NCBI GenBank assembly: GCA_003567725.1
Contig: PWYU01000011.1
Location: 1-48,945 of the forward strand
Length of the DNA stretch: 48,945 bases
DNA from: Syntrophomonadaceae bacterium
GTDB lineage: Bacteria > Bacillota > Dethiobacteria > DTU022
Direction of reading: 5' to 3'
Shown piece after piece: positions 44,843-48,945 of the stretch. The translations under genes and the position numbers were made by a program. Each line of letters begins with the position of its first letter. Positions within the stretch are counted from its first letter, which is position 1. The notes below the pieces were generated by a model. The model was given only the letters and a program-made list of their open reading frames with translations, was not told the origin of the DNA and made no database searches.

Positions 44843-46084
44843 TCAGAAACTCCACCGCGGGCCTTCGCGCGTATCTTCTACCGATACACCGGCATTCTGC
44901 AAAAGAGTGCGAATTTGATCAGCCTCACTCCACCTTTTTTCCCGGCGGCACTGTTCTCTGAGTTCAACCAGGCCTTTAACCAGTAATTCGAACCTGCGGG
45001 GCATTTCTACAGCCTGGTTAATACCGGTACCGGCAAGGACGATCATCTCCCTGAAAATCTCCCGCCCCTGGGATATAAATTCCGGGTTTTCCAGGTCAAG
45101 CTGAGCCTGCCACAGCAGCCCATCTGCCTCCAGTAACCGGGTGATCATAGCGGCCGGATCATTTTGATCAAGGGCCCGCTGGAATGCTTTTTCTATACCA
45201 TGCATCCGGCTCCAAAAAGCTGAATCCCGGCTTATGGCATCATCTGAAGAGGGCTCTATGGCAATTTCCGGGCCGGTTTTTTGATCATCGGCCTCAAAAT
45301 TACCAGTAAGCTGCTTAAAGTTGAGCTCTTCCCCCCTGTTAAAAACCTGTTCGGTTCCGCTGCGCCGGATCGTAACCCGGCCAATACCCGCCACGTAAGC
45401 CCGGCTGGAGGTAAAATCAATAATACAGGCCGTGTGTTCGTCAATACCAAGAATAGTGGTCCCAGCCGGCAGCTGTTCTTCCAGGGTGCGAAAACGCTTT
45501 TCTCCCATGTAACAGAAACGGGTATCATGGTTACCACCTTCGGCATTGTTCCAGTGAGGAATTACAACCAGTTTCAAACCCGTGTTGCCCAGTATATTCA
45601 ACCCTTCCACCCAGTGCAGCGGTTCCCCAACCTTGTAAATCTCGTAAACAGGCAGAGTATGCGTACCGGCAGTAAGGGCGGCGGCGCTGGCCACCACCAG
45701 GCAACCTCCCCTGGCAACCATGGCGCTTAACAGGGCGGGAACAGGCGTTTTCTTCAACTGGCGTACAGCGTAAGTAGGGCTTCCGGGCCCCAGCAGCACA
45801 AAACCGGCTTCCCCCAGGAGCTGATAAGTATGTTCAGTGTCAGCATCAGGTAAAGTATCCGCTTCTTTAAAAGAAGCAACCTCCATCCTTTGCAAGACCT
45901 GGCGCTCAAAAAAATCCACTGCCCGGTGGGCTATCAAATCAACATTTTCCTGGAATCCTGCAGGAGTATCCAAAAAAAGCACTTTCTCTTCCGGCTTTAT
46001 CCCGGTTAGAAGCTTTTTATGGGTTTCCACCATGGTTCCGGAAAGTTCACCGGATCCGATAAGGGCTATAGTGCCACGAATCAT
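44843..46084 (-). CDS. S51/cyanophycinase-like protein fused to a CysRS-like C-terminal domain
   Basis: 413 residues. Residues 1-230 look like a peptidase E/cyanophycinase (type 1 glutamine amidotransferase-like) fold: TIALIGSGELSGTMVETHKK, LFLDTPAGFQENVD, FVLLGPGSPTYAVRQLK, and GGCLVVASAAALTAGTHTLP, where the Ser in ASAAA stands at the nucleophile elbow (usual GxSAG). IDEHTACIID follows. The C-terminal 130 residues resemble the DALR and tail region of cysteinyl-tRNA synthetase, ending with RRFELLVKGLVELREQCRRE then KRWSEADQIRTLLQNAG and VEDTREGPRW. No synthetase catalytic motifs are present. ATG 46084 is chosen (GGATGG six bases upstream). Function unknown; hydrolase or tRNA/cysteine-related roles are possible. 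Confidence 0.75.
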   Translation of the reverse strand: MIRGTIALIGSGELSGTMVETHKKLLTGIKPEEKVLFLDTPAGFQENVDLIAHRAVDFFERQVLQRMEVASFKEADTLPDADTEHTYQLLGEAGFVLLGPGSPTYAVRQLKKTPVPALLSAMVARGGCLVVASAAALTAGTHTLPVYEIYKVGEPLHWVEGLNILGNTGLKLVVIPHWNNAEGGNHDTRFCYMGEKRFRTLEEQLPAGTTILGIDEHTACIIDFTSSRAYVAGIGRVTIRRSGTEQVFNRGEELNFKQLTGNFEADDQKTGPEIAIEPSSDDAISRDSAFWSRMHGIEKAFQRALDQNDPAAMITRLLEADGLLWQAQLDLENPEFISQGREIFREMIVLAGTGINQAVEMPRRFELLVKGLVELREQCRREKRWSEADQIRTLLQNAGVSVEDTREGPRWSF

Positions 46085-46169
46085 ATAAACCATCCATTTC
46101 TGTTTGTCGATCGTAACTACTCAGGCATAGCCCGCTACGATGATGGCTATAGTGCCACGAATCATATAA
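46064..46169. repeat. 25-bp direct duplication of the gene's 5' end
   Basis: The 25 bases at 46064-46088 (start of the S51-like gene) recur exactly at 46145-46169, 81 bases further upstream of that gene. The second copy runs straight into repeat A copy 3. It looks like a duplication tied to insertion or slippage. Confidence 0.85.
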
Positions 46170-46247
46170 GCGGCGCCATGGGGACGGTTCGAGCGTCCCG
46201 CAGCGCAGCGCAGGCCGAATGAAAGACGATGGAACCGTCCCCGTGGC
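46165..46247. repeat. Dispersed repeat family A, copy 3 (best-preserved hairpin)
   Basis: CCATGGGGACGGTTC and GGAACCGTCCCCGTGG give an 11-bp perfect stem GGGGACGGTTC/GAACCGTCCCC; outside them CATATAAGC and GCTTATAAATG are also nearly inverted. The central part is CAGCGCAGCGCAGG. It has the character of a REP/BIME-like palindromic element. No REP-associated transposase is in the window. Confidence 0.75.
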
Positions 46248-46401: not shown

Positions 46402-47288
46402 TCAGGAAATTACTTCTCTTATGATTAAATCAAGGGTCTGAGAGAGGTCAATTTCATGAGGCTGCGCCAGAGGTTTAAAGTTTTTCCCATTGTCATAAAG
46501 CACTCTAACAACAGGTCGCAAAGTAAAACCGGGATTGTTAGCAATTACCAGCCCGCTTGTATCATTACTTAAAAGGACATGGCTGCCTATCGGGTAGGCT
46601 GCAATAACAGACAGGAAATGCTGCAGAATTGTAGCATCAAACAGCTCTTCTCCGCTTGACATAAGCATTTCCACAACTTCATGGGGTTGATAAGCTTTCC
46701 GGTGTGGCCTATCTGATGTCATGGCATCGTAAACATCGGCAATACCGCATAATTGAGCCAGGGTGTTAATATTCTTGCCTGAAAGTCCTTTTGGATAGCC
46801 CTGGCCCTGGAGCCGCTCATGGTGCTGTAAAACCACAACTCCGGCACGCGCATCAAAAATATTAGTGGTACGAAAGATTTCAAAACCCTGCAGCGGATGC
46901 CCGCTAATAACTTTAAATTCATCTTCGGTCAGCTCTCCCGGTTTATTAATCAATTTATCTGGAATGGCTATCATCCCCAGATCATGAAATAGCGAACCGG
47001 CTGCTAACCATCTCAATTCCTTGGGTTTAAATTTCATTTTCTTGGCAGTCAGGGTTGCCAAAACCGCACAATTAACGCTGTGCGCAAACAGGTAATCATC
47101 TTTAGATCTGATATCTACCAGTTGTACTATAGCATCATTACTGTCGAGCAATTCATCTATAATTTTATTAACGGTATTAAGCAGATCCCTATCCTGAACA
47201 TTAATACTTTTTTTTATTTTTCCTCCGGCACCTTCACTCTGAAGGTCTCTGGTAATATCCCTGATTATTAAGCGGGCTTCATAGCGGG
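46402..47288 (-). pseudogene. HD-GYP domain protein, C-terminal part of a frameshifted gene
   Basis: This frame holds the HD-GYP catalytic domain of a c-di-GMP phosphodiesterase-like protein: FAHSVNCAVLATL, SLFHDLGMIAIPDKLI (HD), GHPLQGFEIF, LQHHERLQGQGYPKGLSG (HHE and GYP) and GIADVYDAMTSDRPHRKA. The position before GxGYP is Gln where Asp is usual. The frame continues upstream of its first ATG (47151) through TRYEARLIIRDITRDLQSEG and NTVNKIIDELLDSNDAI, up to the A7 run at 47289-47295, where it joins the other fragment. Removing one A restores one gene of 364 residues (46402-47497). Confidence 0.88.
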
Positions 47289-47497
47289 TTTTTTTCGGTT
47301 ATAGGATCATCAATCTTTATATCCGAAATCCTTTCATCCCGGACATATAGGTATTCTATTCCCGCCTGCTGCAAATAATCCAGGTAACGAGGTTTAATTT
47401 TAATCTCAGCTCTGAGCAAAATTTGCCCTGTATTACTAAAAATATCTTTGGCCAGAACCATGCCCGTTTCTACCTGCTCTATGGAAATTTTACGCAC
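47279..47497 (-). pseudogene. HD-GYP protein, N-terminal part of the frameshifted gene
   Basis: 72 residues: MRKISIEQVETGMVLAKDIF then SNTGQILLRAEIKIKPRYLD and YLQQAGIEYLYVRDE, the usual N-terminal domain of clostridial HD-GYP proteins. It ends at TGA soon after a run of seven A (47295-47289 on the minus strand). With six A the frame would pass into the catalytic domain. This may be a true mutation, a phase-variable tract or a sequencing error. It is the first gene behind the c-di-GMP riboswitch. Confidence 0.85.
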
Positions 47498-47540: not shown

Positions 47541-47575
47541 AATAAAACCCCATCTGCGCATTAAAGCAGATGAGG
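47541..47575 (-). terminator. Riboswitch expression-platform terminator
   Basis: CCTCATCTGC pairs with GCAGATGGGG (one G-U) around an eight-base loop and is followed by TTTTATTATT on the minus strand. It lies between the riboswitch aptamer and the HD-GYP start, 44 bases before the ATG. Confidence 0.85.
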
Positions 47576-47597
47576 TTAAATTCTCCGTCATACTTTA

Positions 47598-47690
47598 ACT
47601 GGCAGCTGGCTGGCATTTCCCAAAATGAGCTTTAGCCCCTTTAGCTTTGCGTCGCCATTTTTCAACGGCTTTGCCTTTGCAGTTTTTGTT
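47598..47690 (-). ncRNA. Cyclic di-GMP-I (GEMM) riboswitch
   Basis: Read on the minus strand, the region contains the conserved GEMM elements in order: AAAGGCAAAGCCGTTGAAAA, then ATGGCGACGCAAAGCTAAAG and GGGCTAAAG, then AAATGCCAGCCAGCTGCC. GACGCAAAGC and the GCCAGC-TGCC tetraloop-receptor-like part are the diagnostic blocks of c-di-GMP-I aptamers. Upstream is a promoter whose start falls just before the aptamer; downstream are a terminator and an HD-GYP gene. It would sense c-di-GMP and control a c-di-GMP-degrading-type protein. Confidence 0.9.
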
Positions 47691-47697
47691 GTTATTT

Positions 47698-47726
47698 ATT
47701 GAATCAAAAGCCTGCATAAATGTCAA
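47698..47726 (-). promoter_or_regulatory. Promoter for the riboswitch/HD-GYP transcript
   Basis: Minus strand TTGACA (47726-47721), 17-base spacer, TTCAAT (47703-47698). Transcription would begin near 47691, at the 5' edge of the aptamer. Confidence 0.7.
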
Positions 47727-47770: not shown

Positions 47771-47850
47771 ACACTGTGTATCAAGTTATCAAGTTATTTC
47801 AAATAACCCAACGCTGTGTATCAATTTGTCATGTATCAGGTTGTCAAGTT
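47771..47850. repeat. Repeat family C, copy 1 (plus degenerate half)
   Basis: ACACTGTGTATCAAGTTATC followed by AAGTTATT, a short loop and AATAACCCAA, then CTGTGTATCAA and degenerate TATCA-GTT motifs. GTTATTTCAAATAAC is a near-perfect hairpin. Family members recur at 48497 and 48872-48945. It lies directly after the stop of the toxin remnant. Confidence 0.75.
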
Positions 47851-47851
47851 G

Positions 47852-48106
47852 TTAGTAAATGTCTCTTCTGTGTTTAACGTGTGTCACCAAATAAGTTTTA
47901 CGAGCATGATCGGCTTGGAACCTTACCCGCCAGTCTCCTACCCTTAAGCGATAATCTCCAAGTTTTCCTTTTAGTTTTTTTATGTCAGCAGCTTCAGGCG
48001 TTTCAAGCATATTGTTAATAGATTCCCATATTCGTTTTCATATATTTATAACTAACTTTTTCATGTCTTTTATGGCCCGGATATCAAACTGAACCTCCCA
48101 CTTCAT
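47852..48106 (-). pseudogene. RelE/ParE-type toxin with in-frame stop
   Basis: 84-codon frame beginning one base inside the antitoxin stop. It translates as MKWEVQFDIRAIKDMKKLVI, N-I-stop-K-R-I-W, then ADIKKLKGKLGDYRLRVGDW, RVRFQADHARKTYLVTHVKH and RRDIY. The LKGKLGDYRLRVGDWRVRF and VKHRRDIY stretches are typical RelE-family toxin sequence. Codon 23 is TGA where a sense codon such as CGA is expected, so the full toxin is not made unless the stop is suppressed. Confidence 0.82.
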
Positions 48107-48354
48107 TATCCAAATAATTCCTTTTCGGCTTCATGTTTTGGAATGCTCTTTCCATCAAGGTGTTCAGACCATGCATTTTTTGCTTCAAGGTTTTCTTTTT
48201 CAGAAGTAGTTTCATCGTCGTAAGGTGCTTTTTTTAAAGCATAGGCCACAGGATCATAGATGGCTAAAAATTCTAAAAACCGTTTAGCTGTTTCAATTTC
48301 ATCGTCTGGCAATGTATCAAGCAGTTGATGAAGTTCTTTTCTCTTAGCGTTCAT
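48106..48354 (-). CDS. RelB-type antitoxin
   Basis: 82 residues, acidic. Helical start KRKELHQLLDTLPDDEIETA followed by KRFLEFL, then DPVAYALKKAPYDDET and KNAWSEHLDGKSIPKHEAEK, a common layout for antitoxins paired with RelE/ParE toxins. GAGGAGG lies eight bases before the ATG. Its stop overlaps the toxin start (TAATG). With the toxin broken, it may be a relic or neutralise a toxin elsewhere. Confidence 0.82.
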   Translation of the reverse strand: MNAKRKELHQLLDTLPDDEIETAKRFLEFLAIYDPVAYALKKAPYDDETTSEKENLEAKNAWSEHLDGKSIPKHEAEKELFG

Positions 48355-48496: not shown

Positions 48497-48513
48497 AACA
48501 CTGTATCAAGTTA
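48497..48513. repeat. Repeat family C, short copy
   Basis: AACACTGTATCAAGTTA, lacking the GT of CTGTGTATCAAGTTA. It forms the left boundary of the transposase remnant. Confidence 0.6.
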
Positions 48514-48870
48514 CAGCGGCAATCTTCGGGTTCTATCGACTCCGAGATGAAAGCTGGAGCTGTGAGGAGTGCCGGATTACCGAAATTACCAAGGAAGATG
48601 GCAGCAAAGAGCTCCAGTATCACGAGGATATAGTTGGTGCTTGCTATGTTGGGCGGCATCCCAACCTGGTGCTTGGCTTAGAGCGGGTTGGCCGTGGTGA
48701 AGGTGAGATCACCGCAACCATGAGGCTTTTAAAAGAGTTTTACCGGCGGCACAATCGCTACACTGATATCATTACCTTAGATTCACTGTATGCTAAAGCG
48801 CCGATCATCAATGAAATCATTGACCAAAACATGATCGCCGTAATTCGAGTCAAACAGCAGCACCCAATAT
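48514..48870 (+). pseudogene. Internal fragment of a DDE transposase
   Basis: Open frame without a proper start: FGFYRLRDESWSCEECRITE, GACYVGRHPNLVLGLERVGR, MRLLKEFYRRHNRYTDIITL then DSLYAKAPIINEIIDQN, followed by MIAVIRVKQQ. The ITLDSLYAKAP stretch followed by a basic beta strand is typical of the catalytic core of IS4-like transposases. Both ends stop at copies of repeat C and no terminal repeats are seen, so it is a dead remnant. The exact IS family is not certain. Confidence 0.75.
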
Positions 48871-48871
48871 C

Positions 48872-48945
48872 CTGTGTATCAAGTTATCAAGTTATTGTGC
48901 ATCGATGGAATAACCCAAAAGTATCTAACACTGTGTATCAAGTTA
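48872..48945. repeat. Repeat family C, copies at the right edge
   Basis: CTGTGTATCAAGTTATCAAG followed by TTATT, an 18-base spacer-like stretch and AATAACCCAA, then AACACTGTGTATCAAGTTA reaching the window end. The layout parallels copy 1. The transposase frame reads through it but no longer matches transposase sequence. Confidence 0.7.

Follow-up and report, generated by a model that had tools for sequence, protein, structure and literature searches.

Results

The window analysed here, a stretch of 48,945 nucleotides, is an entire contig (C90) of a draft genome of 127 contigs and 2.39 Mb that is 95.9% complete. Close to its right end, on the reverse strand, a leader with a riboswitch precedes a gene for an HD-GYP domain protein whose reading frame is interrupted at a run of seven A (Table 1). 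The run falls inside the interval 47279-47300, in which an earlier, sequence-only reading had placed the break. Sequence comparison puts the start of the upstream half at the same site as in its orthologs, and the downstream frame, counted from its first ATG, GTG or TTG codon (TTG at 47151), gives 249 amino acids. The proposal that six A would restore a 364-residue protein matched on both sides is borne out: omission of one A yields a protein of 364 residues, with no further break in the 364 codons; a tblastn search of this read-through protein against the window returned two pieces (residues 1-69 and 68-364), which adjoin at the A7 run; and the ortholog from the same genus aligns over residues 1-363 in a single frame. 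Judged by these two alignments, the read-through frame is not due to chance.

Table 1 Features of the HD-GYP locus in the window, in the order in which they would be transcribed.
Feature	Position	Strand	Description
Sigma-70-like promoter	47698..47726	-	TTGACA 47726-47721, 17 nt, TTCAAT 47703-47698; consensus match only
c-di-GMP-I (GEMM-I) riboswitch aptamer	47598..47685	-	RF01051, full length, 73.2 bits (gathering score 35)
Intrinsic-terminator-like hairpin	47546..47577	-	12-pair stem and T-rich tail; folds as predicted
HD-GYP gene, upstream half	47279..47497	-	72 amino acids; GTG start 47497, TGA end 47279 after the frame shift
A7 run (T7 on the forward strand)	47289..47295	-	Frame breaks here; A6 in three orthologs
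HD-GYP gene, downstream half with HD-GYP domain	46402..47298	-	Open frame, 298 codons, no start near its beginning

The same-genus ortholog (L008/L156, genome G002) is intact, shares 74% DNA and 77% protein identity with the window gene, and adjoins the same neighbouring gene. Further intact orthologs were found in genomes G065 (L157; 68%) and G018 (L009/L158; 64%), and all three, which come from three genera, have a c-di-GMP-I aptamer upstream. The aptamer scan covered 19 of the 23 loci in the homolog set and gave a match at four, the fourth being L165 with the related family RF03167. These 23 matches derive from 11 of the 43 family genomes; 21 of them cover the site, all in one frame, and apart from these there are L172, which begins beyond the site, and the window copy. 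Exactly six A stand at the site in each of the three riboswitch-led orthologs, in the context GAA AAA AC(C/G), and the other 18 homologs carry at most five consecutive A there, none of them with Glu-Lys-Thr codons forming the run. Because all three riboswitch-led orthologs are intact with A6, the window has one extra A, and on this sequence comparison A6 is the ancestral state within the riboswitch-led group. A search of viral contigs for the site, with its spacing allowed to vary, gave no match, and the sole relative found in a scan of genome contigs was the distant L037, which does not span the site.

The leader is well conserved. The window, L008 and L009 have the identical hexamer TTGACA and resemble one another in the -10 region; the promoter scan did not list this promoter-like sequence because its rule demands an A as the second base of the -10 element. 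The riboswitch had been described as intact, which agrees with a full-length aptamer scoring well above the gathering score of its family. A hairpin sequence similar to that of the window lies at the equivalent place in L008, and the terminator-like hairpin is probably the expression platform of the riboswitch. With the aptamer in the 5' leader and this platform ahead of the start codon, the HD-GYP gene is predicted to be controlled by a c-di-GMP-I riboswitch. Apart from the break, conservation thus extends from the promoter-like sequence through the aptamer and terminator to the start and the reading frames. The upstream repeats are rejected as a cause of promoter or riboswitch loss, since they lie beyond the leader and the promoter-like sequence, both of which are conserved.

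Those repeats belong to a dispersed family, CTGTGTATCAAGTTATCAAGTTATT, which occupies 47774-47853 and 48502-48945 of the window and flanks a truncated transposase fragment. A sequence of about 80 bases of the CTGTGTATCAAGTTATCAAGTTATT repeat also opens contig C78 of the same genome (from base 1, L178), shortly upstream of another c-di-GMP-I aptamer, and a search of 40 genomes for a 17-base core of the repeat, with one mismatch allowed, found it in three, all members of the window's genus. The window also has a ParE-like toxin gene (47852-48106, reverse strand; Pfam ParE_toxin, 28.9 bits when the stop is read as X), adjoined by a small antitoxin-like gene (48106-48354). The ParE-like gene has an in-frame TGA at 48038-48040 and is therefore a second broken gene just upstream of the riboswitch. 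On the other side of the HD-GYP gene, the start region of the neighbouring gene is present as a 39-base direct repeat (46050-46088 and 46131-46169, 87%), beside which a 23-base inverted repeat, GCCATGGGGACGGTTC..., lies at 46175-46247; the region of the inverted repeat is perhaps a mobile palindromic element.

By its Pfam match (E 1.7e-27, 96.7 bits against a curated cut-off of 27.2, profile positions 7-170 of 170) the downstream half belongs to the HD-GYP domain family HD_5 (PF13487). The best match among solved structures is 4mcw (E 3e-26), which we take to be PmGH, and the HD, HHE, GYP and late D motifs, among which we presume the metal-binding residues to lie, are all aligned. The solved relatives 4mcw and Bd1817 (3tm8) are stand-alone HD-GYP phosphodiesterases; in the window gene the frame is broken ahead of the domain. 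The sequence-only reading spoke of a conserved catalytic domain; this holds for the domain as such, although the solved enzymes have other residues at two motif positions. The window protein has HDLGM where they have HDIGK and HHERLQGQGYP where they have HHERWDGTGYP, so that the Lys of HDxGK and the Asp of HHExxDGxGYP are replaced by M and Q. The M is common to L008 and L009 and the Asp position is Q in L008 and H in L009; the replacements are therefore a subfamily trait and not damage. Across three genera, an HD-GYP subfamily with M and Q/H (window 46627-47109, reverse strand; L008; L009) has been retained behind a c-di-GMP-I riboswitch. As the usual Lys and Asp are replaced, cleavage of c-di-GMP by this subfamily is putative and unproven.

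The genome as a whole has 24 HD_5 matches, 24 GGDEF matches and 11 c-di-GMP-I aptamers, a content that seems rich for 2.4 Mb. Decayed remnants account for two of the HD_5 matches, L061 and, behind a GGDEF gene, L060; genes of this kind therefore do get lost in this genome.

With L009 as the outgroup, 26 amino acid changes are unique to the window copy and 25 to L008, divided at the run into 6 and 6 before it and 20 and 19 after it. Between the two genes dN is 0.152 before the run, where dS is saturated and not computable, and after the run dN is 0.142 and dS 1.70. By these measures the broken copy shows no relaxed constraint, and its evolution resembles that of a functional gene. There is no excess of changes in the window copy and the break is therefore either very young or a sequence error. 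Old decay, against which the sequence-only reading had also argued, is rejected on these counts and on the lack of other stops or indels in the 364 codons.

The frequency of frame breaks elsewhere in the assembly was assessed with a protein-based survey, in which a 319-kb sample of the genome (G000) was compared with a 906-kb sample of the same-genus genome G001. Matches at 45% identity or more were found in the G000 sample for 81 of the 703 ORFs of the G001 sample, 67 of them with more than 90% coverage. None of the 81 genes was split between adjacent frames, over 151 A/T runs of at least six bases, 46 of which were of at least seven; homopolymer errors are therefore not rife in the assembly, although zero broken among 46 such runs still allows a per-run break rate of about 6% (95% upper limit). 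The HD-GYP gene of the window is outside the 81, its nearest match in G001 being a C56-type paralog (C48:62100) beyond the sampled stretches. Coverage was below 70% for ten of the 81 genes, three of which were examined. L145 compared with L075 revealed an acyl-CoA-dehydrogenase-like gene with a large deletion inside it; L150 compared with L092 differed by a change of frame and some 195 additional bases, outside the adjacency rule, and the query looks like a spurious low-complexity ORF; and L106 compared with L090 had no second piece in order. The gene in L075 (16718-17140, contig C36), presumably acyl-CoA-dehydrogenase-like from our reading of its sequence, lacks a large internal part relative to G001 and is in frame across the gap, which is either a real deletion or an assembly collapse.

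A survey of the same 319 kb with a coding-potential HMM gave 61 frame transitions on both strands (earlier settings gave none), most of them looking like ordinary gene boundaries. Two had no nearby start codon, namely the window's own site and L089:10466 (contig C45). The control recovered only 2 of 25 simulated insertions, and the HMM survey is therefore uninformative.

Discussion

On balance, a recent one-base slippage insertion that gave a null allele is the probable explanation of the break. In the strain or population that was sequenced, an ordinary gene of the HD-GYP c-di-GMP phosphodiesterase type, under a c-di-GMP-I riboswitch, would have received a single A in its conserved A6 run (codons GAA AAA ACC), most likely through slippage during replication and so recently that the rest of the gene has not decayed. 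As written, the allele would encode a 72-residue N-terminal fragment without the HD-GYP domain and would therefore be null. Its loss may be tolerated, given some 20 other full HD-GYP domains in the same genome, and this redundancy, together with the demonstrable loss of such genes, makes a real null allele plausible. One point against a recent mutation is that the frame is perfect except for one base, as an error would also leave it.

That error, of sequencing or assembly, is the next explanation to consider: the true genome would have A6 and the gene would be intact and ordinary. The genome is a draft, both flanks of the run are under full constraint, and the break is a single base at the very place where a homopolymer miscount is expected. 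Against this stand the 81 compared genes, none of which is split although they contain 46 A/T runs of seven or more, and the window's own 37 ORFs of at least 120 amino acids, which contain 25 such runs and no break. We hold an artefact to be possible but tentative, and a real recent null mutation to be at least as likely.

Much less room is left for a reversible phase switch, in which cells would flip between A6 (ON) and A7 (OFF) and the population would be mixed for the phosphodiesterase. The gene is otherwise intact and a change of one base would toggle its frame. Phase-variable c-di-GMP phosphodiesterases do exist: the available text on pdcB of Clostridioides difficile describes phase variation by means of an upstream invertible element (PMC9286219). 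In both cases a c-di-GMP phosphodiesterase would alternate between ON and OFF; unlike the window gene, however, pdcB is described there as an EAL enzyme that is switched by DNA inversion upstream instead of through a tract within its coding sequence (PMC9286219). A literature search on HD-GYP, phase variation and frameshift found nothing on such a case in the partial texts that it returned. The tract itself also argues against a switch. It is constant at A6 in the three riboswitch-led orthologs, and no run of six is present in the other 18 of the 21 homologs. In the sample of its own genome, 236 intact ORFs contain 88 A7 and 22 A8 runs on the coding strand, and A runs of seven or more slightly exceed the expectation from synonymous shuffling (111 against 96 ± 8). 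The contingency tracts known so far are usually longer. The tract is thus not of unusual length for the genome, nor, with one genome per species, is it seen to be kept and variable among relatives. A reversible switch, which the sequence-only reading had put forward beside a sequencing error, is on these grounds very unlikely; the other half of that proposal, an error or a recent break, agrees with the one extra A in an intact and constrained gene. Still less credence is due to the fuller form of the idea, in which a c-di-GMP-responsive HD-GYP gene would also be switched stochastically by slippage at a short A6/A7 run within the gene, with riboswitch feedback on c-di-GMP in only part of the population.

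Equally improbable is a frame restored during expression, whether by RNA polymerase slippage on A7, giving some A6 mRNA, or by a ribosomal +1 shift, with a reduced amount of full-length protein. The HD-GYP gene is still under constraint, and transcriptional slippage rescues poly(A) frameshifts in insect endosymbionts, according to the available text on Blochmannia and Buchnera (PMC3017870). As in the window gene, those frameshifts are single indels in poly(A) runs of otherwise intact and constrained genes; but long tracts are common there, with 153 coding poly(A) tracts of at least nine in B. vafer, and some frameshifts are common to several species (PMC3017870), whereas the window gene has A7, a short tract, in one genome with A6 in its relatives. 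The window gene would regain its frame only with one A fewer or two A more, and in E. coli and Buchnera the genome-wide survey of transcription indels, as far as its text was available, describes a prevalence of insertions in A/T runs, rare deletions within runs and no frame-restoring error (PMC5574713). Nor does the reading frame favour a ribosomal shift, since the heptamer A_AAA_AAC slips the wrong way and +1 is needed. This heptamer favours -1 slippage, which would here give EKKPAMKPA and then a stop. A programmed -1 frameshift is rejected on its direction and because the orthologs require no shift, and internal re-initiation because the first in-frame start, TTG at 47151, lies about 140 bases on and has no visible Shine-Dalgarno sequence. 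Taken together, a switch or a transcriptional rescue is quite unlikely.

The HD-GYP frame break is an ordinary case. Should the break be a young null allele or an error, it is of little importance, and it illustrates that single-base breaks in draft genomes can mimic switches, and that the tract length in orthologs and the lineage-specific change in the gene sort such breaks quickly. If the tract were a true switch, tract-based phase variation would be added to a riboswitch-controlled c-di-GMP enzyme.
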